In this document: positions 2,819 through 22,553 of the stretch, piece by piece | How the letters are laid out: each line of letters starts with the position of its first letter | Numbering within the stretch: position 1 is the first letter of the stretch | Virus record (IMG/VR): IMGVR_UViG_3300006999_000004 | Span: 1-30,316 of that record | Direction: 5' to 3' (one strand) | Length of the DNA stretch: 30,316 nt | DNA from: a virus | Notes under the pieces: model-generated | Database searches by the model: none | Seen by the model: only the letters and a program-made list of their open reading frames with translations | Told to the model about the DNA's origin: nothing | Made by a program: the position numbers and the translations under genes

Positions 2819-3091
2819 ATGGGTAAAAATGGCAGAGAAGTTGGTAAGATAAAGTTTGCCTTAGATTATGAAAATGGGACTATTAGAGAAAATTATAAGT
2901 ATTACAAAAATCAAGATGAACATATATTAATTAGGTATCTAGTTAGAGTTTTAGGAGGTCAGGGAACAGACAAATGGTGTACTTATTTTTATATAAAAGG
3001 GAAAGATATGACTATTAGGGAAGCTCTTGACGAGGCCGAACAAAGAATAGATAAAGATAGCTATATTTCTTTAATAGAAAAAGTTGATTAA
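2819..3091 (+). CDS. Hypothetical early protein
   Basis: A 90-residue soluble protein, first behind the consensus promoter, with AAAGGAGG 5 bases before the ATG, so probably made abundantly early. Alternating charged and aromatic residues (YENGTIRENYKYYKNQDEH) suggest a small mixed fold; the end (TIREALDEAEQRIDKDSYIS) looks helical. High expression and small size fit a host-takeover protein, but there is no homology I recognise. Confidence 0.6.
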   Translation: MGKNGREVGKIKFALDYENGTIRENYKYYKNQDEHILIRYLVRVLGGQGTDKWCTYFYIKGKDMTIREALDEAEQRIDKDSYISLIEKVD

Positions 3092-3115
3092 AGGGAGAGA
3101 AAATAGCGAAAAACA

Positions 3116-3313
3116 ATGGTTAGGTTTACTCTCGTTACTATATTTGTTATTGTATCAGGGTTGCCCCTTACTTTTGTTTGCCAATTTCTTCATAAAGAGG
3201 CTCTGAGGCAGGGATGTGAGAATAAGGGTGGTATGTGGATTAATTTGGAAGAAAAAGATTTTTGCCTTAAAGGTCTTAATCAATTAGAATTGGAAAAGAA
3301 ATGGAAGAAATAA
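3116..3313 (+). CDS. Small signal-anchored protein
   Basis: A 65-residue protein with an N-terminal hydrophobic segment (about residues 4-24) followed by a short domain with two cysteines (C34 and C51) that could form a disulfide outside the cytoplasm. Small phage membrane proteins of this shape (GCxxKGGxWxNxxxxxFCL) are common near early modules. No ribosome site lies at good distance (GGGAGAG is 17 bases upstream), so the exact start is uncertain. It overlaps the CCA-adding gene by 13 bases. Confidence 0.5.
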   Translation: MVRFTLVTIFVIVSGLPLTFVCQFLHKEALRQGCENKGGMWINLEEKDFCLKGLNQLELEKKWKK

Positions 3314-4608
3314 TAAATATATTATGCGATGAAGGGTTCTCTACCTTTATTGTCGGTGGGGCTGTTAGAGATATGCTTTTAGGCCAAAACCCTGAAGATA
3401 TAGATATTGCAACTAAAGCTACCCCTAATGATATTCAGAAGTTATTCTCAAATGTAAAGTTAGTGGGAGAATCTTTCGGGGTTGCTTTAGTAAATGGTGT
3501 AGAGGTGACTACGTTTAGGGCTGATAGACATTTTGGTATAGGAGACGAGAATTGTGTAGTAGATTTTGCCGATACTATAGAAGATGATCTTTCCAGGAGA
3601 GATTTTACTATAAATGCTATGGCCTTGTGCCACTTTTCGGGAGAGATAATTGATCCTTATAATGGTAAACAAGATTTACAAAATAGTTTAATTAAATTTG
3701 TCGGCAACCCTGAGCAGAGGATTTTGGAAGACCCTAATAGAATAATCAGGGCTTGTCGATTTCTAGCTAAGATTGATGGGGAATTTGAGTCTTACACTTT
3801 AAGTGCTTTGCAAGAATTTTCTTTTATGATCGAATCCGCCGTGGCCCCTGAGAGGGTAAGGAAGGAGATAATAAAAGCAATGGCGCTTCCTAATGCTTCA
3901 GCGTTCTTCTCAGCCCTTAAATTAATCGGGGCTTTAAGATATATTTTCCCCTCTTTGGATAAAACATGGAATTTAGATCACGGAAATTATCATAAAGAAA
4001 CTATTTATGACCATAATATGCTTGTAGGAGATAGTATAAGCCCTAAATTTCCACTTGTAAAACTGTCAGGTTATCTTCATGATGTAGGAAAGCCCGTGGC
4101 CGCAATCAAAAATAACTATAATAATTTTGCAAGACACGAAGTTGATTCCGAGGAATTAGCGAGAAAAGAATTGACTTTTATGAAATTCTCTAACTATGAA
4201 GTGGGCTATATATGTGGTCTTATTAGGTCGCACATGTATTCTTTTAATGATTTGAAGCCGAAAACGGCCAGAAAAATTCTAAGTAAAATAAACGATAGAG
4301 GAGTCAGCCTTAAATACTTGTTTAGACTAAAAATTGCTGATAGAAAGGGGAATTTAATGAAAAATCCCTTTACCTTTAGTGAAATTAGGGGTAAAATAGA
4401 GCAATTCCAAGTTGAAGAAGAAACCCCGTTTACAGTTAAAAGTCTAGCAGTAACCGGAGGGGACTTGATAAATCATTTTAATTTAACCCCTTCTCCTTTA
4501 GTCGGGGAAATACAAAGATACTTGTTAGAATATGTTATAGAGGAAGGGGGAAACGAGAGAGAAACCTTATTGAAAAAAGCGGAGGAATATTTATGTCAAG
4601 TAGATTAG
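3301..4608 (+). CDS. cca: CCA-adding tRNA nucleotidyltransferase
   Basis: A 435-residue class II nucleotidyltransferase with HD domain. The head domain has the signature VGGAVRDMLLG (18-28) and the metal-binding pair D33/D35 in PEDIDIAT; RRDFTINAMA (99-108) and DPNRIIRACRFLAK (144-157) are the other family motifs. An HD hydrolase-type domain follows (H238, H260-D261 in YLHDVGKP). The enzyme adds or repairs the 3' CCA end of tRNAs from CTP and ATP. Length and motif order match bacterial CCA enzymes, and the key residues look intact. The next gene, overlapping by 16 bases, is an RNA-repair nucleotidyltransferase and an RNA ligase follows 1.5 kb on, which points to tRNA repair. A poly(A) polymerase relative is the alternative. 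Confidence 0.85.
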   Translation: MEEIINILCDEGFSTFIVGGAVRDMLLGQNPEDIDIATKATPNDIQKLFSNVKLVGESFGVALVNGVEVTTFRADRHFGIGDENCVVDFADTIEDDLSRRDFTINAMALCHFSGEIIDPYNGKQDLQNSLIKFVGNPEQRILEDPNRIIRACRFLAKIDGEFESYTLSALQEFSFMIESAVAPERVRKEIIKAMALPNASAFFSALKLIGALRYIFPSLDKTWNLDHGNYHKETIYDHNMLVGDSISPKFPLVKLSGYLHDVGKPVAAIKNNYNNFARHEVDSEELARKELTFMKFSNYEVGYICGLIRSHMYSFNDLKPKTARKILSKINDRGVSLKYLFRLKIADRKGNLMKNPFTFSEIRGKIEQFQVEEETPFTVKSLAVTGGDLINHFNLTPSPLVGEIQRYLLEYVIEEGGNERETLLKKAEEYLCQVD

Positions 4609-5486
4609 AAAGAGTATATAGGCAAGGTCTGATTACCCCGCCTAAATTTTTAATATCAAATATGCACTATGAAGTACAGATGGGTTCTGTAGCTTACGGC
4701 GTTTCCAACGATAACTCTGACATGGATATTCATGGGTTTGCCATACCTCCTAAGCATATAGTGTTCCCTCACCATGATGGAGTTATTTTTGGCTTTGATA
4801 AGAATTATGAGAAATTTGACCAGTTTCAACAGCACCATATTAAGGACGATGATATAGAATACGATTTTTCTATTTATAATATAGTTAAATTTTTTAGATT
4901 GGTTAGTGATAATAACCCTAATATGTTGGATGCGTTATTTGTTCCTAGAAGGTGCGTTCTGTACTCTTCCGAGATAGGGGAAATGGTTAGAGAAAGAAGA
5001 AAAATATTCCTGCACAAAGGTTCTTTTCATAAACTTAAAGGTTATGCGTACAGTCAACTTCATAAGATGAAGACTAAGAAACCTGACCCCGGAAGTAAAC
5101 GGTATGAAGGTGTTAAGAAAATAGGCTATGATGTTAAATTTGCCTATCATATAGTAAGGCTGATTAATCAGGCCGAGCAGATATTGATGGAAGGAGATTT
5201 GGATTTAGAAAGAAGCAGAGAACAGCTTAAATCTATTAGGAGAGGAGATTGGACAAAAGAGCAAATAATTGACTATTTTGAAAGAAAGGAAAGACAATTG
5301 GAAGATTTGTATCATAAAAGCGATGCTGTGCCGCACAGCCCAAGTGAACAAAGAATTAAACAATTACTTGTAGACTGTTTGGAGCATCATTATGGTAACT
5401 TAAATAACTTAGTAAAAAAGAATGATAGCGTGTACGAAGAAGTGCTTAGAGAAATAGAAGGTATAATCTCTAAGACAATAAAATAA
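4593..5486 (+). CDS. rlaP: RlaP-type RNA-repair nucleotidyltransferase
   Basis: A 297-residue polymerase-beta-fold nucleotidyltransferase. The active-site signature GSVAYGVSNDNSDMDIHG (31-48) contains the GS pair and the two metal-binding aspartates D43 and D45, as in the family named RlaP (PF10127, RNA repair pathway DNA polymerase beta family). The rest is mostly helical. In bacteria such genes are found with RNA ligases and end-healing enzymes; the exact reaction is not settled. Here it overlaps the CCA-adding gene by 16 bases, with its ribosome site (GCGGAGG) inside that gene, so the two are co-translated. The catalytic residues are present. A general nucleotidyltransferase acting on another substrate remains possible. 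Confidence 0.7.
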   Translation: MSSRLERVYRQGLITPPKFLISNMHYEVQMGSVAYGVSNDNSDMDIHGFAIPPKHIVFPHHDGVIFGFDKNYEKFDQFQQHHIKDDDIEYDFSIYNIVKFFRLVSDNNPNMLDALFVPRRCVLYSSEIGEMVRERRKIFLHKGSFHKLKGYAYSQLHKMKTKKPDPGSKRYEGVKKIGYDVKFAYHIVRLINQAEQILMEGDLDLERSREQLKSIRRGDWTKEQIIDYFERKERQLEDLYHKSDAVPHSPSEQRIKQLLVDCLEHHYGNLNNLVKKNDSVYEEVLREIEGIISKTIK

Positions 5487-5489
5487 TTA

Positions 5490-5517
5490 TTGCATTTTAG
5501 TAATTTTATGGTATAAT
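5490..5517 (+). promoter_or_regulatory. Extended -10 promoter with very short leader
   Basis: TTGCAT (5490-5495), 16-base spacer, perfect TATAAT (5512-5517) with TG one base upstream. Initiation about 7 bases downstream would put the transcript start 4 bases before the ATG at 5528, giving a nearly leaderless first gene. It would also feed the RNA ligase gene. Confidence 0.7.
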
Positions 5518-5527
5518 AAGAGAAATA

Positions 5528-5689
5528 ATGAAATTTAGTATAACGAAGCTATGTAAAATGTGCCGAAAGGAGGAAGTTCAAGAAGAATGTATTAAATGCA
5601 AATTTACCCATGCCAAGGATATGTCTCAGTTGCTGAGGTATTTTGTGCAGAAAATCGGTTGGATTGCGGCTAGTAATATAAGTAAATAA
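5528..5689 (+). CDS. Small CxxC...CxxC protein
   Basis: A 53-residue basic protein with C9-x2-C12 and C21-x2-C24, a compact zinc ribbon. There is almost no leader if the promoter at 5490-5517 is used, and no clear ribosome site. An in-frame internal ATG at 5558 is a poorer alternative because it cuts off the first cysteines. No function is known. Confidence 0.5.
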   Translation: MKFSITKLCKMCRKEEVQEECIKCKFTHAKDMSQLLRYFVQKIGWIAASNISK

Positions 5690-5717
5690 CTAAGAACTTT
5701 AAGTACAGGAGGTAAAA

Positions 5718-6023
5718 ATGAAAATATGTCAAGAGAAATACTGTGTGTATCATAATTCACGGCTTTCACTAAATAAGTGTCTTCAATATTATGATATAGA
5801 GAATTGTTCTATTGTTTCCTCTAAAAATAATCCAATGAATAAAATTAGGAAGTCTCGTAAAGAATTGGAAAATAAAATAAGGGAAGCCTGCAAAGATTTT
5901 ACAGAGGAAACCGGGGCCGCTATAACTAATGTCGATGTTGATTTGACGGAAGTAACCTCGGTAGGAGGCGGCCCTATGGAAACTGTGATTAACTATGTTA
6001 AAGTAGAAATAGGAGATAAATAA
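5718..6023 (+). CDS. Cysteine-rich small protein
   Basis: A 101-residue protein. The first 30 residues carry four cysteines (C4, C9, C21, C30) with a Tyr/His-rich spacer, probably a metal site. The second part (from about MNKIRKSRKELENKIREACK) is helical then beta, ending in TVINYVKVEIG. ACAGGAGG precedes the ATG by 6 bases. An internal start at residue 40 would give the second domain alone. Function unknown; it sits between the two RNA-repair genes. Confidence 0.55.
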   Translation: MKICQEKYCVYHNSRLSLNKCLQYYDIENCSIVSSKNNPMNKIRKSRKELENKIREACKDFTEETGAAITNVDVDLTEVTSVGGGPMETVINYVKVEIGDK

Positions 6024-6025
6024 TA

Positions 6026-6169
6026 ATGCTAAGCAAAATGGCACGTCAATTAACTAAAAGGGATAGGAAAATAGAAGAAATTAGTGAGGGGTTGAAAGAA
6101 GATAGAGTTTATAAAGTACCATCGTATGTGAAAAATTTATTAAAGATTATGGGAGGGAGTAATGTTTAA
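6026..6169 (+). CDS. 47-residue basic protein
   Basis: A small basic helical protein (MLSKMARQLTKRDRKIEEIS...) with AGGAGA 9 bases before the start. Its stop overlaps the RNA ligase start by 8 bases, so it is translationally coupled to the ligase. It has no recognised motif; basic charge and position would suit an RNA-binding accessory, which is speculation. Confidence 0.5.
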   Translation: MLSKMARQLTKRDRKIEEISEGLKEDRVYKVPSYVKNLLKIMGGSNV

Positions 6170-7082
6170 GAAATACCCGAAAATAAATAATACTTACCGT
6201 AGCAAAGAACTTAGTTGGTGGCTCGAATGGTCCCCTGAGTTGGCTAATAAGGCTTATGTATCTCAGGAAAAGCTACATGGTAGTAATCTTCAAATAGCAG
6301 TAGGGCCGGATGGTAGCTGGGTTATTGGCTCTCGAAATCAAAAATTAAATGAAGATGCTAATTTTCAGAAAATAAAAGTATATAATTTCATAGAGAGCGA
6401 ATATAGACAACTTCTTAACTATCTTAAATTTTTAGCTAAAACTAGAGATGCTATAATTAGGGTATATGGGGAGCTTTGTGGCCCGCACATCCAAAAGGGA
6501 GTTGATTATGGAGAAAATACTTTTTTTAAAATATTTGATATGATGATTAACGATGAGTTTTTCTCACAAAGACATTTACAGGAACTTTTAAACATTAATT
6601 TGTTAGTTCCTATTATTTCTTATCATAATAATATTTGGGATGCTTTTAATCAAGATATTAATATTATTTCTATGTTAAACCCAACGGGAAAAGATATTAT
6701 CAAAGGTATAGTAATAAAACCATTTGATGGTGTTTATATTTCTTCTTCAGGCCAACCTTTTTATTGGAAGAAAAAGAATGAGTCTTTCTCTGAAAAAGCA
6801 AAAGCCTCCAAACCAAAAATAACTGATACTGAAATCATAAGGCTTAATAAGGAATTTAAATCTTACCTTACTTATAACAGACTTCAAAATATATTTTCTA
6901 AATACGGGGAGATAGACTCTCCTAAGCAGCTTGGTGAGTACATTAAGTATATGATGATTGATGCTAAGGATGGTTTCAATACAGACTTCAGCGAAGAAAT
7001 TAGTGGCTATGAAGGTAAAGAAAGAAAGGAAATATACAAAGACCACGGAACAATAGCTAAAATGCTTAAAGAATATTTGTAA
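6162..7082 (+). CDS. Rnl2-type RNA ligase
   Basis: A 306-residue ATP-dependent RNA ligase resembling T4 Rnl2. Motif I is EKLHGSN with the nucleotidyl lysine K37; SRN (57-59) and VYGELCGPHIQKGVDYG (101-117) match the regions around motif III, with E104; FKIFD (122-126) is motif IIIa; IIKGIVIKP (179-187) aligns with motif IV; and YWKKKNESFSEK (201-212) is motif V. The last 90 residues fit the C-terminal domain of this family. Rnl2 enzymes seal 3'-OH/5'-phosphate nicks in RNA. Odd point: motif IV normally has a catalytic Glu before Gly (EG), and here it is Lys181. GGGAGGG precedes the ATG. With the CCA enzyme and RlaP it makes an RNA-repair group. Confidence 0.8.
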   Translation: MFKKYPKINNTYRSKELSWWLEWSPELANKAYVSQEKLHGSNLQIAVGPDGSWVIGSRNQKLNEDANFQKIKVYNFIESEYRQLLNYLKFLAKTRDAIIRVYGELCGPHIQKGVDYGENTFFKIFDMMINDEFFSQRHLQELLNINLLVPIISYHNNIWDAFNQDINIISMLNPTGKDIIKGIVIKPFDGVYISSSGQPFYWKKKNESFSEKAKASKPKITDTEIIRLNKEFKSYLTYNRLQNIFSKYGEIDSPKQLGEYIKYMMIDAKDGFNTDFSEEISGYEGKERKEIYKDHGTIAKMLKEYL

Positions 7083-7087
7083 AAATT

Positions 7088-7246
7088 ATGAATTATGAAA
7101 TAAATATATGGACAAGATGCTCTAATTGTGGTATATTGGTAGAAATACATTTAATGACAGAAAGATGCCCAAATTGTGGGAAGTATACACCAATACCAAA
7201 GAAATATGGTATTTTTGTCGAGTTAGAAGGAGGACTAAATAATTGA
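7088..7246 (+). CDS. Zinc-ribbon micro-protein
   Basis: A 52-residue protein with C11-x2-C14 and C27-x2-C30 (CSNCG...CPNCG), a textbook zinc ribbon, followed by a short tail. It lies 5 bases after the ligase gene and directly before the recombinase. No good Shine-Dalgarno is seen, so it may depend on coupling to the ligase. Function unknown. Confidence 0.5.
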   Translation: MNYEINIWTRCSNCGILVEIHLMTERCPNCGKYTPIPKKYGIFVELEGGLNN

Positions 7247-7255
7247 GGATAAACT

Positions 7256-7804
7256 ATGAGAGGATGTAGACCGTTAAATAAGGAGGAAATACGGGCTGTA
7301 CTTAGTCAAGTAAAAGACCAGAGAGAGAAGGTTTTAGTTTTGACTTCTCTTTATTTTGGGGTGCGAATTAGTGAGGCATTAAAATTAAAATTTACCGATT
7401 TTGAAAATAATGATTATGTTAGAATACAGCGTAGCAAAAATTCTAATGTTACTAGTCTGAAGATTCCTCAAGATTTCAAAGATGAACTTAAAGTTCTGAA
7501 AGATTATTATAAAAATAATGGTCGGCCTATTACTGATGAAACTCCTTTGTTTATTGGATACAAAGGGCATCTTTCTCGTCAATATGCTACTAAGTTAGTT
7601 AAAAATCTTATGAATAGGTCGGGTCTTAGAGGAAATTTAGGCTTTCATAGCTTTCGTAAGTCTTATATTACTAAAATTTATGAGCTAACCGGCAAAGATA
7701 TAGTGCAAACTCAAGCCTATTCCGGCCATAAGAATTTAAATTCACTTATTGCATATATTGAAACAACTCAATACAATGATTTAACAGACGAACTAAACTA
7801 CTAA
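7256..7804 (+). CDS. Compact tyrosine recombinase (catalytic domain only)
   Basis: A 182-residue protein with the full catalytic set of the tyrosine recombinase/integrase family: R37 in FGVRISEALKL, K61 in the beta hairpin, H131-x2-R134 in FHSFRKSY, H158 in YSGHKN and nucleophile Y167. The usual N-terminal core-binding (SAM-like) domain is absent, so it is half the size of XerC/XerD or lambda Int. Such short recombinases occur in phages and plasmids. Possible roles are dimer resolution or integration; no attachment site was recognised nearby. GAGG precedes the ATG by 8 bases. Confidence 0.75.
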   Translation: MRGCRPLNKEEIRAVLSQVKDQREKVLVLTSLYFGVRISEALKLKFTDFENNDYVRIQRSKNSNVTSLKIPQDFKDELKVLKDYYKNNGRPITDETPLFIGYKGHLSRQYATKLVKNLMNRSGLRGNLGFHSFRKSYITKIYELTGKDIVQTQAYSGHKNLNSLIAYIETTQYNDLTDELNY

Positions 7805-7994: not shown

Positions 7995-10006
7995 TGCGTA
8001 AATTCACTTCGGTTGAGGTAGCACAAAAATATATAGAAGAAATATGCAATAAATACAGTATGTCGGAGGCTTTCAAGGCTTCTTGCTTTATCCAGGTAAA
8101 AAAACTTGGGGAAATTTATGGGGAGAATGAAATACCTAAAGAGGATTTTCTCACTGTATTTAGTAGATCTTTCAACTCTTTAAGAACAGGATACAAAAGA
8201 ACCCCTGTCGATATAGAAGAATTTATTCTTGGGGTTGAGTACCTTAATCTTGAGCAGTCTATCCGGCCACAAATTAAAGAAGAACTCATAAATCTTTTTA
8301 CTGATTATAATTATTGTTATGAAGCCTTGCTCTGTGGCAGCGTCCGTTGGGGCAAGACGTATTTTTCTTGTGTAGGTATGGCTTATCAGGCTTATAAATT
8401 AAGCTGTCTATACGATCCTCAGGCACATTATAGTTTATCCCCAGGCTCAGAAATTGTTTTCTCTTTTCAATCTATTAATGAGACGAAAGCTAAGAGAAAC
8501 TTTAGAGAATTTGCTTCTATGGTTTATTCCTCTAAATATTTTAAAGAGAATTTCCCCCCTCAAGGAAAGTCAAAAAATTATATGGTTTTCCCTAATAATA
8601 TCCTTGTAAAGCCAGTTGCCTCTAATAATACGGCTGTAATGTCTGAAAACATATTTTCAGCTTTTATAGACGAAGCTAACTTTATGAAAGTAATGAAAGG
8701 GTCTAGGCATCAAGGTTTAGATGAAGATTATTACGACCAAGCTACCAAACTATATACGACCGTTAAGGATAGGATTCAGAACCAGTTTAAAGATTTTTCC
8801 ACAGGGGAATGGCCGGGGAAGCTATACCTCGCATCTTCAGCCAATCACACTGAGGATTTTATTCAGGTTAAAAAGGAAGAAGCTCAAAAACTAAAGGACA
8901 AGGGAGAACATTGTCCTATTTATGTAATGGACTATCCTTTGTGGGAAGTTAAGCCTAATATGAATCCATCGGATAAAAAGTTTTGGGTAGAAATGCCCGG
9001 CGAGGATCACGCTGGAAAAATACTAAAAGAAAACCCTGAAAAAGTTACAGAAAATATAATTGAAGTGCCTGTTGAACTTAAAGATCAATTTGAGAATGAT
9101 CTTCATGGTTCCATTAGAAATGTGGCCGGGCGACCACTCAAGCAGGAAAGTAAGTTCATACCTGTAGCTAAAGTATTAGACAATACTAAGTTGTATCATG
9201 AACATTACGGTAGCCAGCAAATATTTTCCACGCAAGAGGTTAGTATAAATGAAGTTATTAATATTCCAAGTCTTTTAAATATCCCTTTTATAGAGGCTAT
9301 TAATAATTTTGGGCGATTTCATGCTCATTTAGATATGTCTTATAAAGAAGATTCCGCTGGCCTTGGTATCGGATGTGTAATGGGGGCTAAACAAATGGAA
9401 GCTCGCCAGATTTATAATGAGGAGACGGAGGATTATGAATTTACAGATGAATATATGGCCCCTATATATGTGATTTTTGGTCTACTAAGAATAAATCCAC
9501 CTGAGAATGGTGAAATTGACTTTACTAAAGTTACCAAGCTATTCCATGCAATACTACAGTATCTTGGAAATTTGAAGTCATTCACGGCTGACAGAGCCTA
9601 CTCAGCACCTTTTTTCCAATATTTAAGAGAACAGAATGTATCTACCAATAGTCTTTCCGTAGAAAGGAATATTGAGCCTTATTATGAAGCCAAGCATGGG
9701 ATAATAGAAGATAGGCTCTGGACCCCTGAACACGAAAAGTATAAAGAAGAAATAAAAAACTTGCAATTAGATGCAAAATCTGGTAAAGTCGACCATAATT
9801 TTTATTCAAGCAACGACCTGACTGATTGTGTAGCCGGAATAGTTTATACATTGTCCAAGAGGAAGATGACTTGGAAAAAGAAAGACTACCCTGTTACATT
9901 TTCAGAAATGAAAAAACTTAGCGAAACAAAGAAGGGGCCGAAAATATCGGGTAGACCGGAATCAAAGAATAGATCGGATGTTTTAAATAGAAGAAAAAGG
10001 AGGTGA
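7994..10006 (+). CDS. terL: Terminase large subunit
   Basis: A 670-residue packaging motor. The ATPase part has Walker A GSVRWGKT (115-122, K121) and Walker B FSAFIDEAN (221-229, D226-E227). The RNase H-like nuclease part shows candidate metal ligands D447 (HLDMS), D533 (FTADRAYS) and D611 (NDLTDCVAG). It cleaves concatemeric DNA and pumps it into the prohead through the portal. It is longer than the usual 450-550 residues because of about 105 extra N-terminal residues. Unusually, the head genes do not follow: 6.5 kb of small and replication genes lie between, and no portal is seen. Confidence 0.88.
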   Translation: MRKFTSVEVAQKYIEEICNKYSMSEAFKASCFIQVKKLGEIYGENEIPKEDFLTVFSRSFNSLRTGYKRTPVDIEEFILGVEYLNLEQSIRPQIKEELINLFTDYNYCYEALLCGSVRWGKTYFSCVGMAYQAYKLSCLYDPQAHYSLSPGSEIVFSFQSINETKAKRNFREFASMVYSSKYFKENFPPQGKSKNYMVFPNNILVKPVASNNTAVMSENIFSAFIDEANFMKVMKGSRHQGLDEDYYDQATKLYTTVKDRIQNQFKDFSTGEWPGKLYLASSANHTEDFIQVKKEEAQKLKDKGEHCPIYVMDYPLWEVKPNMNPSDKKFWVEMPGEDHAGKILKENPEKVTENIIEVPVELKDQFENDLHGSIRNVAGRPLKQESKFIPVAKVLDNTKLYHEHYGSQQIFSTQEVSINEVINIPSLLNIPFIEAINNFGRFHAHLDMSYKEDSAGLGIGCVMGAKQMEARQIYNEETEDYEFTDEYMAPIYVIFGLLRINPPENGEIDFTKVTKLFHAILQYLGNLKSFTADRAYSAPFFQYLREQNVSTNSLSVERNIEPYYEAKHGIIEDRLWTPEHEKYKEEIKNLQLDAKSGKVDHNFYSSNDLTDCVAGIVYTLSKRKMTWKKKDYPVTFSEMKKLSETKKGPKISGRPESKNRSDVLNRRKRR

Positions 10007-12323: not shown

Positions 12324-12749
12324 TTGGATAGAAAAAGGCTCAATAAACAAATTCTTGAGGCTGATACTCTTATAGATTTAATAGAAGGTCATAAAGATAA
12401 TTTTTGGAAGAACCACCCGGCCTATAAAATGTGGAAAGATTATCCTCATAACTTAGAGTTCTATAGAGATACTATGCTAAAAGAATGGGTTTTTGACAGG
12501 AAATTTAATAACACACGAGATTTCTATGGAGTATCTGAGCCGGAGTCAAAGCCTTGGTTTGTATACGATGAAAAAGTAATTATTTCTCATAGATCTAATT
12601 TAGTAAGAAAGCTACCTGAACATTATGGGAATTTCGGGTGGAAAGATTTTGGTATAGAAGGCTATTTTTGGCCTTGTGAAGTTAAGACTAAAAGAAGTAT
12701 ATTAATTAATGAACAATGGAAAAAGGAGTTAAGTAATGGAAAAAACTGA
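12324..12749 (+). CDS. Endonuclease-V-like (MSMEG_6728-type) protein, N-terminus interrupted
   Basis: The 141-residue frame from TTG at 12324 matches a family annotated as pyrimidine-dimer glycosylase / MSMEG_6728: LDRKRLNKQILEA, FWKNHPAYKMWKDYP, EWVFDRKFN, HRSNLVRKLPEHYG and GYFWP. Members are thought to act on damaged DNA or RNA bases; the activity is not proven for this branch. The family normally begins M(Q)TFLPYxDF. Here that segment, TFLPYSDYTLIAKC, is encoded in frame from 12282 but is preceded directly by ATG-TAA (12276-12281). So codon 2 is a stop where Gln is usual, and a TTG start would lose conserved residues. Explanations: nonsense mutation, sequencing error, or an unusual start. 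Confidence 0.65.
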   Translation: MDRKRLNKQILEADTLIDLIEGHKDNFWKNHPAYKMWKDYPHNLEFYRDTMLKEWVFDRKFNNTRDFYGVSEPESKPWFVYDEKVIISHRSNLVRKLPEHYGNFGWKDFGIEGYFWPCEVKTKRSILINEQWKKELSNGKN

Positions 12750-12990: not shown

Positions 12991-13380
12991 ATGGATGTAG
13001 GAGATAAAGTTTACATAGTTAGTAATCAGAAAAATGATACAGGTATACATGGGGCACTCTATAATTCCGTAGATTACTATTGTTTATTGTTGTATTCTAT
13101 AATATTAGATAATGATCAGATCATAAGGGTTCCAGAATGGAATGTGAGAAAGAAAGAAAAGACCTATAGTATAGGTACTAAAGTTAGAATACAGCCCGGT
13201 CTGCTCAGAGAAGATCATTATGTAATAAGCAAAACAGGTCATTGCATGGAAGTGAATTTAATAAACCCCAATTCAGGTAATGTTTGGGATCAGCCTATAA
13301 AAGTAAAAAGCTGCTCAAAAATTACTGAAACAGAAATAAACAAACTTGTTTCCGGTTATGATTGGGAGGTGGTTGAATGA
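12991..13380 (+). CDS. Hypothetical protein with SH3/KOW-like start
   Basis: A 129-residue beta-rich protein. The start DVGDKVYIVS and the later IGTKVRIQPGLLREDHYV each look like the first strand of an SH3/KOW-type barrel, so it may hold two small barrels. AAGGGGG precedes the ATG. It overlaps the following gene (ATGA). Function unknown. Confidence 0.5.
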   Translation: MDVGDKVYIVSNQKNDTGIHGALYNSVDYYCLLLYSIILDNDQIIRVPEWNVRKKEKTYSIGTKVRIQPGLLREDHYVISKTGHCMEVNLINPNSGNVWDQPIKVKSCSKITETEINKLVSGYDWEVVE

Positions 13381-13775
13381 AACCTATAGTCTATCTCGCT
13401 TTACCTTATAGTGCTAACATGGATAAATCTCAGGAGCTTAGTTCGACTAAGCCTGATTATGATACCACAAAAGTAAAAGAAGAAAGGTTTAAGAAAGCTA
13501 ATGAAGTAGCGGCCAAACTCTTTAAAGCAGGGTTTTGGGTGATAAGCCCAATATCTATGACCCATCCTATAGCTATAGAGGGTAACATAAAAGGCACATT
13601 TTCAGAATGGGAAAAATTTAATTATTTTCAAATATCAACATGCCACATGGTTTTTATTCTTTGTATAAATGGATGGGATACTTCAGAAGGTGTTGCTAAG
13701 GAAGCCACTTTCGCTCAAGATAACGGTATCCCTGTTATAAAAATAGACGAAAATCTTCAAATTTTAGGAGACTGA
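13377..13775 (+). CDS. DUF1937 / nucleoside deoxyribosyltransferase-like protein
   Basis: A 132-residue Rossmann-like protein: VYLALPYSA at the N-terminus, RFKKANEVAAKLFKAGFWVI, SPISMTHPIA, FEWEKFNYFQISTCHMVFIL-type strand and GWDTSEGVAKEATFAQDNGI near the end. This is the layout of DUF1937, related to nucleoside 2-deoxyribosyltransferases; a catalytic Glu is likely in GVAKEATFA. Such proteins may salvage or modify nucleotides during replication. It is placed just upstream of the helicase. Family assignment good, reaction unproven. Confidence 0.65.
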   Translation: MKPIVYLALPYSANMDKSQELSSTKPDYDTTKVKEERFKKANEVAAKLFKAGFWVISPISMTHPIAIEGNIKGTFSEWEKFNYFQISTCHMVFILCINGWDTSEGVAKEATFAQDNGIPVIKIDENLQILGD

Positions 13776-15608: not shown

Positions 15609-15658
15609 CCTTATAAAAGTCAGTTATTTAATGAATTTGAAAAACATAGGAGGAGGTA

Positions 15659-15907
15659 ATGGTTAATTTAGGAGATGAAGTAAAAGATGTGGTCACTGAA
15701 TTTCAGGGGATAGTAGTGGCTAAAACAAAGTATTTGCATGGATGCTCAAGGGTAGGCGTACAACCGAAAATCAAAAAAGATGGAACATTACCGGAACATG
15801 AGAGCTTTGACGAACCATCATTAGTAGTTGTATTTCACCACGCAGTACCAGAAGGGAATCATTCGACAGGAGGGCCAGAAAAGTACAAGGATAAAAAAGA
15901 AATGTAA
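15659..15907 (+). CDS. SH3/KOW-like small phage protein
   Basis: An 82-residue protein with LGDEVKDVVTEFQGIVVAKT, YLHGCSRVGVQP and the FDEPSLVVV ending; this order is typical of a common small phage family with an SH3-like barrel whose role is unknown. AGGAGG precedes the ATG by 4 bases. Confidence 0.6.
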   Translation: MVNLGDEVKDVVTEFQGIVVAKTKYLHGCSRVGVQPKIKKDGTLPEHESFDEPSLVVVFHHAVPEGNHSTGGPEKYKDKKEM

Positions 15908-15952
15908 TTTTGTACCGATATTATTATAATAATTTAATAAAAGGAGAAAAAT

Positions 15953-16306
15953 ATGATAATTATAATTCCACTTGCTGTTTTAACAATATTAGGGCTTATT
16001 ATTTTTAATCTATCTGATTGTTATGAAGGTCTTGGTTTTTTTATGACGGGGCTAGGTATTTGTAGTTTATTTATGTGTCTAATTACAATACCCATTAACC
16101 ACTTAGGCGTAAAAGACAATATAGTAGAATATCAATCGGTTAAAGAGACTTTGAAAGAATCTCGCAAAAACGAGTCAATCGAAAATGCGGCATTCTCAGT
16201 GAAAATAGCTGAGATGAACCAATGGAAATCGTCAGCAGTATATTACAATGGGATTTTTGATCTTTGGATTCCTGATGAAGTCGAAAATCTCAAACCAATA
16301 AAATAA
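15953..16306 (+). CDS. Two-span membrane protein with phage C-terminal motif
   Basis: A 117-residue protein with two hydrophobic helices (about 2-19 and 28-48), then a helical cytoplasmic part ending FDLWIPDEVENLKPI. That ending, following EMNQWKSSAVYYN, is typical of small phage membrane proteins found near replication modules. AAGGAG precedes the ATG. It is the last gene before the terminator. Function unknown. Confidence 0.55.
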   Translation: MIIIIPLAVLTILGLIIFNLSDCYEGLGFFMTGLGICSLFMCLITIPINHLGVKDNIVEYQSVKETLKESRKNESIENAAFSVKIAEMNQWKSSAVYYNGIFDLWIPDEVENLKPIK

Positions 16307-16339
16307 TTTTAAAATAGAACTTTAAGCTCATCCTCTCCC

Positions 16340-16374
16340 AAGCCTCGGTCTTTAGCTAGATCGGGGCTTTTTTA
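16340..16374 (+). terminator. Intrinsic terminator ending the early/middle operon
   Basis: AAGCCTCGGTC (16340-16350) pairs with GATCGGGGCTT (16359-16369), allowing two G-U pairs, around an 8-base loop and followed by TTTTTT (16368-16373). It lies 33 bases after the last early-region gene and before the late promoter. Confidence 0.8.
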
Positions 16375-16429
16375 TTACCTTCCTACTTAAATAATTTTAG
16401 TAATTATAAACTTTTTTAATAGTAAAGCC

Positions 16430-16458
16430 TTGACATTACTTTACTATGTGCTTACAGT
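16430..16458 (+). promoter_or_regulatory. Late (structural operon) promoter
   Basis: TTGACA (16430-16435), a 17-base spacer and TACAGT (16453-16458). It is the only good promoter before the head genes and lies just after the terminator. An operator-like pair begins 8 bases after the -10, covering the expected start site. Confidence 0.6.
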
Positions 16459-16466
16459 TTATATTG

Positions 16467-16492
16467 AATCTATAGTAATTTAATCTATATTA
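16467..16492. promoter_or_regulatory. Operator-like paired TATAG site at the late promoter
   Basis: On the minus strand 16492-16470 reads TAATATAG-N7-TACTATAG, identical in all 23 positions to 1138-1160. The two half-sites are 15 bp apart. It overlaps the expected transcription start of the late promoter, the position of a repressor operator. Confidence 0.65.
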
Positions 16493-16512
16493 AAATAATA
16501 GGAGATAAATAA

Positions 16513-17250
16513 TTGCCTACGCCTCAACCTTCGCAGGAGGATGTGGATACATGGATGGACAGATGTATTCCTGAAGTCTTAGAAGACGGTACTGCCGAAG
16601 ATCAAGATCAGGCTTACGCAATTTGTCAAGATATGTGGAATGAAGCTACCCAAAAAGAAGAAAATTACGTAGAAATTCAGAAGCAAGACTCTGAAAATAA
16701 AGTTGTCAAAGGCGTGGTTTACGAAGCCGGAAACGTGGATACTGACGGCGAAACTATGACTGCTGACATGGTTAGGAAGGCTGCTTGGGATTTCTTGGCC
16801 GAAAGACGAGAAAAGAACATTGATATTAGCCATAATTGGCAACAGTCCGGTTGCTATGTTGTGGAATCTTACTATACAAGTAAAGAAGGCCACGATGGTT
16901 TTCCTCCTAATTCATGGGTAATGTCAATTAAATGTTCGGATGAAATTTGGGAAAAAGTAGAGAAGGGCGAGTTAAACGGGTTTAGCTTTGGTGGTACTTC
17001 TACTAAATTTGCCGCCCGTGTTCTTTTAGAAGTAGCCAGAGAAGTCATAGGTAACACTGAGCCTAACCTTAATAAAGATGTAATTCCCGAACACGACCAT
17101 TCCTTTGTAATTTATTTCGATAAAGAAGGTAATATTGTTAAAGGAACTACGGATATTAACCAAGATCATTACCACGTTATAGTTAGTGGTACGGCCACTG
17201 GTACTTCAGTCGGCCATTCCCATAGAGTAGATATTTCAGAGAGTAACTAA
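16513..17250 (+). CDS. XkdF-like prohead protease with C-terminal His-pair domain
   Basis: TTG start, AGGAGA 7 bases upstream; 245 residues. The N-terminus (TWMDRCIPEVLEDGTAEDQD) is a short motif found on phage proteases and related head proteins. The protease core, VVKGVVYEAGNVDTDGETMT through GFSFGG, matches Peptidase_S78_2/XkdF; likely catalytic residues are H107 (DISHNW) and S158 (GFSFGG). It should cut the scaffold and capsid precursors inside the prohead. After about residue 190 come three spaced HxH pairs (194/196, 219/221, 235/237), probably a metal-binding module. Next gene carries the sequence that follows the protease in some single-chain XkdF proteins. Confidence 0.75.
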   Translation: MPTPQPSQEDVDTWMDRCIPEVLEDGTAEDQDQAYAICQDMWNEATQKEENYVEIQKQDSENKVVKGVVYEAGNVDTDGETMTADMVRKAAWDFLAERREKNIDISHNWQQSGCYVVESYYTSKEGHDGFPPNSWVMSIKCSDEIWEKVEKGELNGFSFGGTSTKFAARVLLEVAREVIGNTEPNLNKDVIPEHDHSFVIYFDKEGNIVKGTTDINQDHYHVIVSGTATGTSVGHSHRVDISESN

Positions 17251-17252
17251 TA

Positions 17253-18263
17253 ATGGCTAAAGCGAAAAGTTTCGTGATAGAGGACGAGGTTGTTTTTATG
17301 GACGATGTTAAGGTTGAATTTGTCAGCCTCGTAGGTCATGCGGCCAATAGACAACCTTTTCAAGTTATCAAAGGAGATAAAGATATGAAAAAAGTAATTG
17401 ATAGTGTCCTCGTACCTAAAGAAATGGACGAGGAAAAGATTAAAGAACTATCAAAGAAGCATCAGTTTTCTCTGGATGAGAAACAGGAAGATGTTCTTGA
17501 TGGTTTTGACCTGTATAAGCAGGTAAGTGATGAAGATATTGATGAGGATACTAAAAATGTAGCCGTCATTGAAAAAGAAGATGGTATTTACGGAATCTTG
17601 GCCGACCCTAAGGATAAACGTAAGGGTACTGAGAAGCAGTTTGATGAGGCTGATATAGATAGCATAATTGATGGCATGTTTGCTGTGTCTGATATTGTTA
17701 TTGGCACTCTTCGTCAGCCACAGGCCAGTGATGCTAACCGTAAAAATAATATTCTTCAGGCTATTGATAATTTCAGGAAACATGCAGAAGCCGTCCTTAG
17801 TAATACTAAGGAAGACGATGTAATTGATCTTGAAAATTATGAAGTCAAAGGCGAGAATCTTGAACCTCTTTTCAAGACTGAACAGCCTTCCGAACCAGTA
17901 GGAGACGATAAAGAAGAAGATTCTAAAAAAGTAGACACTAAAATTTCTGAGGCTATTGAAGCCCTGAAATCTGAACTTGAATTGCAGGTTGATGAAAAAC
18001 TGGAAACTAAATTTAAAGAAGCCAGTGATAAAATAGATAGCCTTGGGTCTGAAATAGATACTAATTTGAATAAAGAATTTGAAACTGTAGCTTCCAAGGA
18101 GGAAAAAGAGGCAATAGAAGGCGAAGTTAAAGAACTTAAAGATTCTATTGAAGAGCTAAAAAATAAAACACAACAGAGACATAGTGAGCCTGAAGAAGAT
18201 GTTCACAAAAAAATAGAAAAGAAAGATTTTTCTAAAAAAAGAAATTTCGTAACTTTTGCATAA
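17253..18263 (+). CDS. Head scaffold-like protein
   Basis: A 336-residue acidic protein. Near the N-terminus VKVEFVSLVGHAANRQPFQVIK (approx 19-40) is the segment seen in XkdF-type protease/scaffold proteins. The last 130 residues are a predicted coiled coil (LKSELELQVDEKLETKFKEA onward), ending in a basic tail with KKRNFVTFA, as scaffolds often have to touch the capsid. Position between protease and major capsid supports a scaffold. A separate polypeptide rather than a protease fusion. Confidence 0.65.
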   Translation: MAKAKSFVIEDEVVFMDDVKVEFVSLVGHAANRQPFQVIKGDKDMKKVIDSVLVPKEMDEEKIKELSKKHQFSLDEKQEDVLDGFDLYKQVSDEDIDEDTKNVAVIEKEDGIYGILADPKDKRKGTEKQFDEADIDSIIDGMFAVSDIVIGTLRQPQASDANRKNNILQAIDNFRKHAEAVLSNTKEDDVIDLENYEVKGENLEPLFKTEQPSEPVGDDKEEDSKKVDTKISEAIEALKSELELQVDEKLETKFKEASDKIDSLGSEIDTNLNKEFETVASKEEKEAIEGEVKELKDSIEELKNKTQQRHSEPEEDVHKKIEKKDFSKKRNFVTFA

Positions 18264-18279
18264 TTAAGGAGAATATAAT

Positions 18280-19191
18280 ATGAGTTCAAACGTAAGAGAA
18301 ATTCTAGCTAAGGCTGATACTTCAGTTAGCGATCTGCTTGATGGCGGAAAGCTGAATGCTACCCAGTCCGATAAGTTTTATGAAAGTGTAATTGAACAGG
18401 CTGTCTTGCTTAATGAAGTAAGGACTGTCCGGATGCCTTCTGATAAGTACAATATTGATAAGATTGCATTTGGTTCCCGTATGTGGCGAGCCGCACCTAA
18501 CTCCGGTAATCCGCTCTCAGCAGAGGACAGGTATAGGCCGACTTACGATCAGATACAGCTTGATGTAAATGAGGTCATAGCGGAATTTCGTATTCCTTAT
18601 GACGTACTTGAAGATAATATTGAAAGGGATCAGCTTCAGGATACTTTCATGAGCATGGCTTCTAGGCGTACTGCGGCTGACCTTGAGGAATTGCTGATTC
18701 AGGGTAATACTAGTTCTGATGATCCGTTTCTTGCTCTGTCTGATGGTGCTTTGGCTTTGGCTGAAAATACTTATGATGGTTCAAGTCTATCTGCTATTGA
18801 TAAAGAAGTCTTTAAGGCCGCTATGGATAATATGCCAGCCAAGTATTTCAGGAATCTCAATGAAATGAAGTTCTATATGAGTCCGCATAATACTGTGGAA
18901 TATAGATATTCATTGGCAGGACGTGGTACTGATCTTGGTGATGAGAGTTATATAAATCGCCCCGGTCTTAGTGCTTTTGGCGTCCCTGTTTCTTCTGCTG
19001 ATTTTATGCCCGGTGCTAATATCCTGTTTACCTTCCCTCAGAACCTTATCCTTGGTATTCATAGGGATATTATGATAGAAACTGAGAGAGATATTAGGAA
19101 TAGGGAACTAGTAGTTGTTATGACTGCTAGGGTTGATGTTAAGATGGAAGAGCCGGAAGCCGCAGTTAATGCAAGCAACCTTAGCTGGTAA
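18280..19191 (+). CDS. Major capsid protein (HK97 fold)
   Basis: A 303-residue protein with the features of small HK97-type capsid proteins: N-terminal helix, EQAVLLNEVRTVRMPSDK, an E-loop-like region (AFGSRMWRAAPNSGNPLS), AEFRIPYDVLEDNIERDQLQ as the spine region, RRTAADLEELLIQGNT, MSPHNTVEYRYSLAGR, and a C-terminal beta segment RDIRNRELVVVMTARVDVK. AAGGAG precedes the ATG. It follows the scaffold directly, and codon use is slightly more C/G-rich than in early genes, as expected for a highly expressed gene. Confidence 0.8.
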   Translation: MSSNVREILAKADTSVSDLLDGGKLNATQSDKFYESVIEQAVLLNEVRTVRMPSDKYNIDKIAFGSRMWRAAPNSGNPLSAEDRYRPTYDQIQLDVNEVIAEFRIPYDVLEDNIERDQLQDTFMSMASRRTAADLEELLIQGNTSSDDPFLALSDGALALAENTYDGSSLSAIDKEVFKAAMDNMPAKYFRNLNEMKFYMSPHNTVEYRYSLAGRGTDLGDESYINRPGLSAFGVPVSSADFMPGANILFTFPQNLILGIHRDIMIETERDIRNRELVVVMTARVDVKMEEPEAAVNASNLSW

Positions 19192-19217
19192 TTATAAATA
19201 AATAAGGAGTAAATGAT

Positions 19218-19727
19218 ATGAAAAATTATAGTGAACAGACTAGAATTACTCCGGTCGCTTCTGGAGGTCATTCTCAGACCACAGTTACTTCCGGTAATTC
19301 TGATCTAAAGATTAAGAGTGAGAAGGTATATGATACCAGTTCTTCTCAGGATCTCTTTACCAGTCTTTCTGCTGGTGATGTCATCCTGATGAGTGGTTGG
19401 GATTATTCTGAGAATAACAGAGTATTTGTCGTAACTGACGTGGAATCAGGCGGGTACTGGATTAAGGTGGATAAACAGCTTATAAATGAAGGGGCTGCTC
19501 CCGGCAGTATTACTATTGAGAAATCCCCGGAGTCTCTGACTATAAGCGGGGTTACTACTTATGATGTTATTGTAGACGTAATCAATGCTAATTCCACCTC
19601 TTCTTCTGCCGAGGAAGCCGATGCTAGTAAAGCTCGAATTACTGCTGCCGATACTGTATCTAGTTTTATTGTCGCAGATACAGGAGATGATCTTAGGGTT
19701 GTTTGGGCAAAACTTTCTGCTGGTTAA
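19218..19727 (+). CDS. Head decoration or capsid-associated protein
   Basis: A 169-residue beta-rich, Ser/Thr-rich protein directly after the capsid gene, with AAGGAG 10 bases before the ATG. The middle, LSAGDVILMSGWDYSENNRVFVVTDVES, reads as a small barrel. The position and composition suit a decoration protein on the capsid surface, but no family signature is visible, so this is inference. Confidence 0.5.
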   Translation: MKNYSEQTRITPVASGGHSQTTVTSGNSDLKIKSEKVYDTSSSQDLFTSLSAGDVILMSGWDYSENNRVFVVTDVESGGYWIKVDKQLINEGAAPGSITIEKSPESLTISGVTTYDVIVDVINANSTSSSAEEADASKARITAADTVSSFIVADTGDDLRVVWAKLSAG

Positions 19728-19733
19728 TCTTAA

Positions 19734-19754
19734 AGGGGGGCGTTCCAGCCCCCT
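19734..19754 (+). terminator. GC-rich hairpin after the capsid genes
   Basis: AGGGGGGC (19734-19741) can pair with GCCCCCT (19748-19754) around a short loop. The following AATTCTTAAAATTTT is A/T-rich but not a clean T-run, so it may be a partial terminator or an mRNA-stabilising hairpin that sets capsid against downstream expression. Confidence 0.5.
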
Positions 19755-19782
19755 AATTCTTAAAATTTTACAGAGATAACTA

Positions 19783-20051
19783 ATGAGTGATAGCATTTCT
19801 ATATACAGAGGGATAATGAAACCCTGAATCTTACTTTCACTGATAGTGATGGTAATGTTATAGATATTACGGATTGAGTTATTTTCTTTACTATTAAGTT
19901 AGAAGGTGATACTGCTGATAACGATGATAACGCTGTTATAAAAAAGGATGTTACCACACATGATGATCCTCTTAATGGAAAAACTAGTATTGATCTTTCC
20001 AAAGTGGATACTGATATAAAAATAGGGAATTATGAGTACGATATACAGTAA
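19783..20051 (+). pseudogene. Broken BppU-like small structural gene
   Basis: The conceptual product starts MSDSISIYRG in one frame, then continues DNETLNLTFTDSDGNVIDIT in the -1 frame (shift at 19810-19812), meets TGA at 19875-19877, and goes on VIFFTIKLEGD ... IGNYEYDIQ to TAA at 20049-20051. Joined, it looks like the small N-terminal domain found on many phage baseplate/fibre proteins (IYRGD-type start, ...DITG-x-x-I-x-F-T-V-K). The TGA is where Trp or Gly is usual. Two independent lesions point to a decayed gene or read errors; programmed recoding is less likely, since TGA ends many other genes here. Confidence 0.55.
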
Positions 20052-20430
20052 TGAACTTAGAGAAGGTTCAATGCTTGTGCTTCATTTAATGGGGGTTTAT
20101 TCTAACGCATCTACATCCGATGATTGGGCAATTCGGATGAAACTCGGAGGCACCACCTATGAAACTATCGCCCGTACTGGAGGTAATGCCACTAGCAGGG
20201 GATGGAAGGCATCTTTCACCTTAACTTTCAGGGCAGTAGGTAGTTCGGGGGAAGTTTATGACCATGCCACATTGGTGGATGGATCTAACACATACTCTGC
20301 GGATATTGGCAGTTCTCATACAGTTGATATGACCGTGGCAGAAGATATAGAAGCAACCCTCCAATGGGATAATGCAAAAACTGATAACGTATTTCAATGC
20401 ACACAGGCTTATTTAGAGAGGATAGGGTAG
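20032..20430 (+). CDS. Small virion surface (jelly-roll-like) protein
   Basis: A 132-residue protein overlapping the end of the broken gene in another frame. LGGTTYETIARTGGNATSRG, WKASFTLTFRAVGSSGEVYD and AEDIEATLQWDN read as successive beta strands of a jelly-roll like those on head fibres or tail appendages. No good ribosome site is at the ATG, so it may depend on coupling to the broken gene or start at the ATG of GSMLVLHL. Function inferred from pattern only. Confidence 0.5.
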   Translation: MSTIYSNELREGSMLVLHLMGVYSNASTSDDWAIRMKLGGTTYETIARTGGNATSRGWKASFTLTFRAVGSSGEVYDHATLVDGSNTYSADIGSSHTVDMTVAEDIEATLQWDNAKTDNVFQCTQAYLERIG

Positions 20431-20439
20431 ACTTAAAAT

Positions 20440-21267
20440 ATGGAATTGAAAACAACTCCGGCAAGGCATGATTCTAATAGCTATATTTCTCTGACTAATA
20501 CAGAGTCTTACTTTTCTTCTTATAATAGACTTGCTAAAAGTGAAACTTGGCCTGTTCTTACAGAAGCTCAGAAAAAATTTGCTTTGTTCTTGGCCGCAAG
20601 AGCCTTGGATACTTTCAAATTTAGAGGACGTAAAATAACCTATTCTCAAAATAGAGCCTTCCCAAGATTTTCTTGGTATCAGTTAAATGTAGAAAAGGAA
20701 ACTCCGTGGGAAAGTTTTTTCAAAGCTACAAGGGCTAATAACCTAACTAGTATTATCAGTAATGGTGATATTGAAGTAAGTAATAATAAATTAGTCGATA
20801 AAAGCTCAAGTGGAGATGCTTTCTATTATCATTACTATTACGAAAGAATAGATATAAACCAAGTTATAAAAGTGGCGGGCCTTTCTACTGATGAATACTT
20901 GACTATCAAGGATATAGCTTTTGACGGGTCTTTCATTGAAATAAAAGAAGATATTACTGATGAAGCTGTTCCTTCCGGCGGTGTAGATATACATGCTACG
21001 CCTTTGTTTGGGTTCTCAGAAGATATAGGCTATGCACAGGCCGAACTTGCTTTTCAATATGTAGATACCAGCGTATTTCAAGCTAATATAAATGAAATTC
21101 CTGAGCCAGCTTTAAAGTCATGGACAATGGGTAATAATATAGAAGTTACTTACCAAAACAATTTTTGGGGATTCAGTAAGTTCTCCCCTGAAAGAGTTAC
21201 GTCATTAGATATTGTCTATATGCTTCTTGGAGATTGGATAACTTCAATAGGTGGTGGAGTTGTTTAA
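20440..21267 (+). CDS. Head-tail connector (DnaT_2-like) with insertion
   Basis: A 275-residue protein. Residues 14-75 (YISLTNTESYFSSYNR ... LAARALDTFKFRGRK ... AFPRFSW) resemble the helical adaptor family named DnaT_2 found at the head-tail junction, and AQAELAFQYVD with ...YQNNFWGFSKFSPE is its C-terminal half. Between them, about residues 85-185, lies an extra beta-containing block not usual in the family. It should sit under the portal ring. Overlaps the next gene by 17 bases. Confidence 0.65.
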   Translation: MELKTTPARHDSNSYISLTNTESYFSSYNRLAKSETWPVLTEAQKKFALFLAARALDTFKFRGRKITYSQNRAFPRFSWYQLNVEKETPWESFFKATRANNLTSIISNGDIEVSNNKLVDKSSSGDAFYYHYYYERIDINQVIKVAGLSTDEYLTIKDIAFDGSFIEIKEDITDEAVPSGGVDIHATPLFGFSEDIGYAQAELAFQYVDTSVFQANINEIPEPALKSWTMGNNIEVTYQNNFWGFSKFSPERVTSLDIVYMLLGDWITSIGGGVV

Positions 21268-21655
21268 TATAAATTTTTCTAGCATAGAAAAAAGAGTTAA
21301 GACTTTTTTAGATAGTGCTTTTAATAGCTCTATGATTAATAAAGTTACTTATAAAAAATTTGAGTCCTTTACTTACGACGAGTCAACTGGAAAAACCGTC
21401 ACTAGTTATTCAGAATACGAATTAGACGTAATAAGAAGCGATACCGCTCTGGAAGCCCAAAAAGCAAGTACGATTTTATCGGCAGTAGGTTTTTCCGGCG
21501 GGGAAATGTTGATGATAGCTAAATATGAGGATGTTCCTCGTGATCCTTACTCAAAAGATATTATGAAGGATTTCCTTATAGATGGAAATAATGAGGAATA
21601 TACGATAAAAAAAGCAGTACCATTGTTTACTTCATTTATAATTATTCAAATATAA
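21251..21655 (+). CDS. Head-tail joining protein
   Basis: A 134-residue protein starting at GTG 21251. The text around VTYKKFESFTYDESTGKTVTSY, and the beta-rich end (FLIDGNNEEYTIKKAVPL) fit phage neck/stopper proteins in this genome position. Overlaps both neighbours (17 bases and 1 base), so translation is coupled. Family assigned mainly by order. Confidence 0.55.
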   Translation: MVELFNINFSSIEKRVKTFLDSAFNSSMINKVTYKKFESFTYDESTGKTVTSYSEYELDVIRSDTALEAQKASTILSAVGFSGGEMLMIAKYEDVPRDPYSKDIMKDFLIDGNNEEYTIKKAVPLFTSFIIIQI

Positions 21656-22137: not shown

Positions 22138-22553
22138 TGTCAAACTACGCTGAAATACAAGCCCTATTAAATGGCAGATTAAGAGAAATAACTGATCTTC
22201 CACTATGGAGTAGAGAAAATTTCTATATAGAACCTTCAGAAGATGAGATGTATGTAGAGTCTTTTTTGGTTCCTAGTATATCTGAAAATAGATATTTAGG
22301 AGATACCCCTACTTATGAATCAGGTGTTTTTGCAGTAAATGTGGCCGGAGTGCGAGGAAGAAGTTGGGGGTATATCTACGAATTGGTAGATAAAATAATA
22401 GAAAAATTTAAGAAGAATACAAGATTGATAGATTCAAGTGAATCTTTGACAGTAAATATGAAAAAAGCATACCCAATTCCGGGGTTTCAAAATGATACAG
22501 GCCGGTTCGTGGTTCCTGTTCATTGTGAATATTTTGCTTTTGTTGACAATTAA
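22137..22553 (+). CDS. Tail terminator protein (DUF4128-like)
   Basis: A 138-residue protein: ALLNGRLREITDLPLWSREN, a strand PTYESGVFAVNVAGVRGRSWG, a helix YELVDKIIEKFKKNTR, and a C-terminal strand RFVVPVHCEYFAFV. This alternation is the DUF4128/tail terminator pattern. It caps the tail tube at the head end. It overlaps the preceding gene by one base. Confidence 0.7.
   Translation: MSNYAEIQALLNGRLREITDLPLWSRENFYIEPSEDEMYVESFLVPSISENRYLGDTPTYESGVFAVNVAGVRGRSWGYIYELVDKIIEKFKKNTRLIDSSESLTVNMKKAYPIPGFQNDTGRFVVPVHCEYFAFVDN

Follow-up and report, generated by a model that had tools for sequence, protein, structure and literature searches.

The model for phage-encoded repair of nuclease-cut tRNA is phage T4, in which Pnkp and the RNA ligase Rnl1 act against the damage done by PrrC. 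The T4 system is not known to include a CCA-adding enzyme or RlaP, a nucleotidyltransferase family (PF10127) reportedly named by Burroughs and Aravind in 2016. In jumbo phages, RlaP, CCA-adding enzymes and ligases of the Rnl1, Rnl2 and RtcB types are listed as RNA-repair genes in the survey of Iyer et al. (2021, PMC7824862), and RlaP is described there as a ligase-associated family predicted to restore nucleotides before ligation. The same three families are encoded within positions 3301-7082 of the IMG/VR virus record IMGVR_UViG_3300006999_000004, the whole 30,316 bp of which were analysed and are referred to here as the window. The proposed logic is also the same, lost nucleotides being refilled before a cut tRNA is sealed, but the arrangement is different. 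In that survey the jumbo-phage genes are listed individually and RlaP is associated with ligases, whereas in the window the CCA and RlaP genes overlap, probably in a smaller siphovirus-like genome, and the two recur elsewhere as a pair or as a fusion. The conserved unit is this CCA-RlaP pair rather than the CCA-RlaP-ligase trio. The bacterial rtcBA operons are alike in that the CCA-RlaP pair of Gammaproteobacteria sits with rtcB and rtcA; RtcB seals 3′-phosphate or cyclic ends, whereas the window has an ATP-dependent Rnl2-type ligase instead.

The virus infects bacteria. The record is a fragment of a siphovirus-like genome, probably about one third of it, since the nearest relatives of the large terminase and of the major capsid protein belong to siphophages of about 80-100 kb. 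Genes absent from the window thus mean little, and this includes Pnkp and Rnl1, neither of which was found in it. The three genes in question are intact open reading frames (ORFs), all on the + strand:

3301-4608, + strand: predicted class II CCA-adding enzyme with a C-terminal HD domain, 435 amino acids (Pfam, PHROGs, motifs, AlphaFold model)
4593-5486, + strand: RlaP-family (PF10127) nucleotidyltransferase, 297 amino acids (Pfam, PHROGs, motifs, model)
6162-7082, + strand: Rnl2-type RNA ligase with a C-terminal domain, 306 amino acids (Pfam, motifs, alignment)

The original prediction, made from the DNA letters, had named these three enzymes correctly, as judged by the open ORFs, Pfam matches over the cut-offs and agreement with PHROGs. 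It had also given the overlap, which the ORF coordinates bear out, the RlaP start codon lying 16 bases inside the end of the CCA gene. The motif IV substitution in the ligase, the small gene or genes between RlaP and ligase and the fragment status of the record were missed by it.

Recurrence of the pair was assessed in viral loci anchored on either gene. Of 83 RlaP-anchored loci, 14 have a same-strand CCA gene no more than 3.5 kb away. Among the 80 CCA-anchored loci RlaP lies within 3.5 kb in 56, always on the same strand and with 26 gaps of less than 100 nt, 17 of these being overlaps; this set is biased and its counts are inflated, since the nine seed CCA proteins other than that of the window all came from RlaP loci. 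Each of the two sets holds some near-copies. A search with the CCA protein of the window alone gave no close viral relatives, and an alignment-based search was used instead. The pair is seen in both gene orders. In Caulobacter phage CcrSC, which carries CCA and RlaP, the two are unlinked. On the large contigs carrying RlaP and CCA, a same-strand distance of at most 3 kb was found in 6 of 22 where 0.4 were expected (P ~2e-6 under uniform placement). The starred branches of a 177-protein RlaP tree require CCA linkage to have been gained or lost nine times or more. At L016:9980-12223 the two enzymes form a natural RlaP-CCA fusion, a single chain of 747 amino acids adjoining a DNA-polymerase-like gene. 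In bacteria, Gammaproteobacterial loci (L170, L171, L174, L176, L197 and L242) show rtcB-rtcA-CCA-RlaP runs, which are frequently followed by another rtcB. As read from coordinates, some of the genomes have no CCA gene other than the linked one and a PcnB-like gene. The recurrent adjacency in viruses and some bacteria points to a shared repair job. The presence of a class II CCA enzyme beside these genes had been thought uncommon, a view that does not hold, as a CCA gene is present on 22 of 50 RlaP-bearing phage contigs.

The ligase behaves differently. In viruses, linked pairs have a ligase nearby no more often than unlinked RlaP genes do (12/50 versus 10/60, p = 0.35). Whole-contig co-occurrence of CCA and ligase was considered as support and rejected, being found in 16 of 50 RlaP phages against 13.6 expected (p = 0.14). 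The trio is thus not upheld as a unit. At bacterial RlaP loci a nearby ligase, mostly RtcB, is enriched beside linked pairs (5/10 versus 5/56 for unlinked, p = 0.005). The ligase is an interchangeable and optional partner of the pair, and may be Rnl2, OB-Rnl or RtcB. CCA, RlaP and ligase are found in one run at several loci (L014, L070, L102, L104, L150, L153 and L304). In viruses the association of the three genes is not above chance. The newer element is the tight coupling of CCA and RlaP, the trio being of a known kind because CCA, RlaP and ligases in phages are described in PMC7824862. Priority is uncertain: the passages of that survey used for comparison do not describe the CCA-RlaP pair or fusion, and an earlier mention is possible in the paper that named RlaP, which lay outside this comparison.

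The assignment of 3301-4608 as a class II CCA-adding enzyme by predicted activity draws on several lines. Over curated Pfam cut-offs the protein matches PolyA_pol (109 bits), PolyA_pol_RNAbd, HD and tRNA_NucTran2_2, and the PHROGs assignments for the genes agree with Pfam. Its AlphaFold model (mean predicted local distance difference test, pLDDT, 90) matches solved CCA enzymes along the whole length, best 6qxn (Z 31.2, 363 residues, root mean square deviation (rmsd) 4.5). It also scores high against the bacterial poly(A) polymerase 3aql (Z 28), so that the fold alone separates the two poorly; by sequence, its nearest match among solved structures is 6ibp, a CCA-adding enzyme. The active site GG..RD, DxD, RRD, ERxxxE is intact (G19 G20 R23 D24 D33 D35 R99 R100 D101 E184 R185 E189), each residue being kept in at least 99 of 102 proteins. 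A poly(A) polymerase identity was rejected, as the signature, a regular expression that we take to be the one given in the literature, is absent from the window protein and from the rest of the 102-protein set.

The architecture is that of the HD-bearing CCA enzymes of Escherichia coli and Mycobacterium tuberculosis, with a nucleotidyltransferase head, an RNA-binding region and an HD domain with intact metal residues; the window counterpart is phage-encoded and its HD activity is predicted from sequence. H238, H260, D261, H279 and H311 are identical in all 102 CCA proteins, and D347 in 101. Phosphohydrolase activity has been shown for the M. tuberculosis enzyme and is cited for that of E. coli (PMC10673834). 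By this analogy, and with the HD residues intact, the CCA protein may plausibly heal 3′ ends through this domain. The original prediction had seen no end-healing enzyme and supposed that ends might come ready for ligation; it overlooked the intact HD domain.

Relatives bear on the same point. About 7 kb of L304 encode both an Rnl2 and an Rnl1-type ligase along with RlaP, a CCA head on its own and a fusion of an HD domain with a P-loop kinase domain, a set to be compared with T4 repair, and the RNA-repair island at L304:7989-18760 also has two RlaP paralogues and a metallophosphatase-like gene. In L150, HD and polynucleotide-kinase-like domains are fused in the order opposite to that in L304. 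The occurrence of such HD-kinase fusions next to the pair suggests that CCA enzymes have in their HD domain a module for healing RNA ends. The view that a phage with a ligase but no Pnkp depends on ready-made ends would then have to be revised. The genes found beside RlaP or the pair in relatives include OB-fold Rnl ligases, RtcB, RtcA, a Pnkp-like kinase-phosphatase, Thg1 and Pth2.

RlaP of the window matches PF10127 with 67 bits against a cut-off of 23, and matches to the family occur in hundreds of phage records and many bacteria. The catalytic GS..YG..SDxD and the third carboxylate are intact (G31 S32 Y35 G36 S42 D43 D45 D91), and these residues are 93-100% conserved among 216 proteins. 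The model consists of a nucleotidyltransferase domain and a HEPN-like helical domain, with HalB of the Hailong system as the best structural match (Z 9.2, 171 residues, rmsd 4.6), followed by aminoglycoside nucleotidyltransferases. These matches fit a nucleotidyltransferase and give no indication of its substrate. The recurrent CCA partner, the gene overlaps and the L016 fusion point to tRNA 3′ ends as a concrete substrate class for RlaP, and the fusion offers one protein that can be assayed.

From the gene identities, the intact catalytic residues of CCA, HD and RlaP, the adjacency with one fusion and the RNA-repair neighbours, we give about an even chance that the core of this locus is a two-enzyme tRNA end-restoration pair, CCA and RlaP from overlapping genes with the ligase gene separate, that repairs nuclease-damaged tRNA. 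Host nucleases would cut or trim tRNAs in the infected cell. At the 3′ end the HD domain of the CCA enzyme would strip blocking 2′,3′-cyclic or 2′/3′-phosphates, RlaP would then replace nucleotides that are missing at the break or in the 3′ strand of the acceptor, and the nucleotidyltransferase domain of the CCA enzyme would restore CCA. Internal breaks would be sealed by an RNA ligase. The substrate, the order of steps, the chemistry of RlaP and the counter-defence purpose are the proposed parts of this scheme. A wider form of it is put forward tentatively, as the less probable outcome: CCA and RlaP may be an undescribed, widespread two-enzyme and sometimes single-chain machine for rebuilding tRNA 3′ ends, in which HD healing, RlaP refilling and CCA completion follow in sequence and which phages and bacteria couple to whichever ligase they have. 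If so, the natural substrate of RlaP would be tRNA that has lost 3′ nucleotides.

Several observations weigh against repair by the pair. The majority of RlaP loci in viruses and in bacteria lack a nearby CCA gene, the CCA-anchored counts carry the inflation mentioned and some loci are near-copies, and whole contigs gave the chance-level ligase count above. No 5′ kinase or polynucleotide kinase-phosphatase was found in the scanned ORFs of the window, a fragment, and no report of an activity or substrate of RlaP was found in the literature. The last such point lies in the ligase itself.

The ligase was placed in the Rnl2 group by two Pfam domains over cut-off, RNA_ligase (55.4 bits) and T4_Rnl2_C (48.9 bits), and by similarity to T4 Rnl2. 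Against the NCBIfam equivalog TIGR02307 it scores 78 bits, under the cut-off of 197, as a distant family member. It is about 27% identical to T4-like Rnl2 and 35-38% identical to closer relatives in L268-L273, six loci in which no CCA or RlaP match was found; L268 is one with an intact motif IV. Motifs I (K37, KxxG), IIIa (E104), III (F125-D126) and V (K203/K205) are kept, and in motif IV the Glu corresponding to E204 of T4 Rnl2 is replaced by Lys181 (codon AAA, window positions 6702-6704). Across 78 aligned rows this position is Glu in 76, Lys in the window and a gap in one. Ligation by T4 Rnl2 requires Glu204. The motif IV Glu of TbREL1, which is related to that enzyme, belongs to a charge network around the ATP phosphates (PMC2100368). 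Because of this replacement, sealing by the phage's own ligase is doubtful, or else the Lys181 base is an error.

One alternative concerns the ligase alone and is compatible with the others: either this protein is a pseudo-enzyme or there is a sequencing error in the Lys181 codon, and in both cases the finding is uninformative on sealing in this phage. A change from GAA to AAA takes one base, and 76 of 77 aligned relatives retain the Glu, while the intact reading frame and the preservation of all other nucleotidyltransferase motifs argue against it; we regard it as possible, if rather unlikely. No sister phage for codon 181 was obtained by the terminase search, and the capsid search gave only L348, a 10.9-kb contig of a second metagenome that is 99.7% identical to window positions 15626-26537 and represents the same phage, but has no coverage of the ligase site. 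No near-identical phage was found among 50,697 records. The tRNA-repair reading is reasonable, provided that it is based on CCA and RlaP as a pair and on the HD domain, not on the ligase of the window. The RNA-repair function originally proposed for the three genes is accordingly retained in part, being favoured by the RNA-repair neighbours in relatives and by published surveys (PMC7824862), while the trio as a unit is given up and the ligase may be impaired.

Slightly less likely is maintenance of the acceptor end only, where CCA and RlaP would rebuild tRNA 3′ ends damaged by exonucleases or end-modifying toxins, no internal break would be sealed, and the ligase would be separate and possibly decaying. 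The lack of ligase enrichment at linked viral pairs fits this, as do the 0.7 kb and at least one gene between RlaP and a ligase without its motif IV Glu, and the L016 fusion, beside which no ligase was detected. The description of RlaP as ligase-associated in the survey, the seven loci with all three genes in a single run and the enrichment for a nearby ligase, mostly RtcB, at linked bacterial pairs speak against it. Ordinary tRNA maturation is improbable. The CCA enzyme would finish phage or host tRNAs made without CCA, as was proposed for the phage tRNAs and CCA enzyme of phage RaK2 (PMC3622015), and RlaP and the ligase would act in other RNA processing in which no damage is involved; neither tRNA genes nor Rfam families were found in the window, itself a fragment, and the RlaP linkage, the HD conservation and the repair-type neighbours would be left unexplained. 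Least probable is a role of RlaP in signalling or as an antitoxin-type nucleotidyltransferase, on the lines of HalB or MNT and not of a repair polymerase, with the adjacency to CCA reflecting tRNA ends that serve as signals or targets. Despite the structural matches above and a C-terminal part resembling HEPN bundles, Z 9 reflects a shared fold and not a shared function, and the recurrent nameable neighbours of RlaP include RNA-repair enzymes and no recognised toxin or channel.

Around the three genes the following features, all on the + strand, were recorded:

2766-2794, + strand: promoter-like site TTGACA-17-TATAAT with extended -10 TG, sigma-70-type, 12/12 consensus
2819-3091, + strand: 90-amino-acid ORF, first after the promoter-like site, with no Pfam match over cut-off and no PHROG
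3116-3313, + strand: 65-amino-acid ORF overlapping the start of the CCA gene, function unassigned (ORF call; Pfam and PHROGs scans)
5528-5689 (end approximate), + strand: possible small Cys-rich ORF with CxxC pairs, read by eye
5718-6023, + strand: 101-amino-acid ORF, function unassigned, weak match to PHROG 1707

The promoter-like site, a consensus match of a kind not more numerous in the window than in shuffles, may drive the gene run 2819-5486, which ends with RlaP. Clear Shine-Dalgarno-like sequences precede the RlaP and ligase genes, and the 0.7 kb between these two hold the gene at 5718-6023 and perhaps a second. After the ligase, a small zinc-ribbon-like ORF at about 7088-7250 resembles, by eye, the Cys-rich ORF near 5528. 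A tyrosine recombinase of 182 amino acids (7256-7804) adjoins the ligase and comprises the catalytic domain only, apparently without the usual N-terminal DNA-binding part. Further along the window are a match to pyrimidine dimer DNA glycosylase (Pyr_excise, 12324-12749) and a DUF1937/nucleoside 2-deoxyribosyltransferase-like protein (13377-13775).

Two features of the relatives were not used as evidence: L009 encodes an NAD-dependent DNA ligase, and 14 loci have a phosphoesterase-like gene in the vicinity of RlaP. The CCA gene of L090 has upstream of it a gene (8347-9339) whose protein contains a long low-complexity region of Ala-Tyr-Asn repeats. A radical SAM gene recurs downstream of RlaP on the same strand in L091, L096, L101, L110, L114 and 13 more loci.

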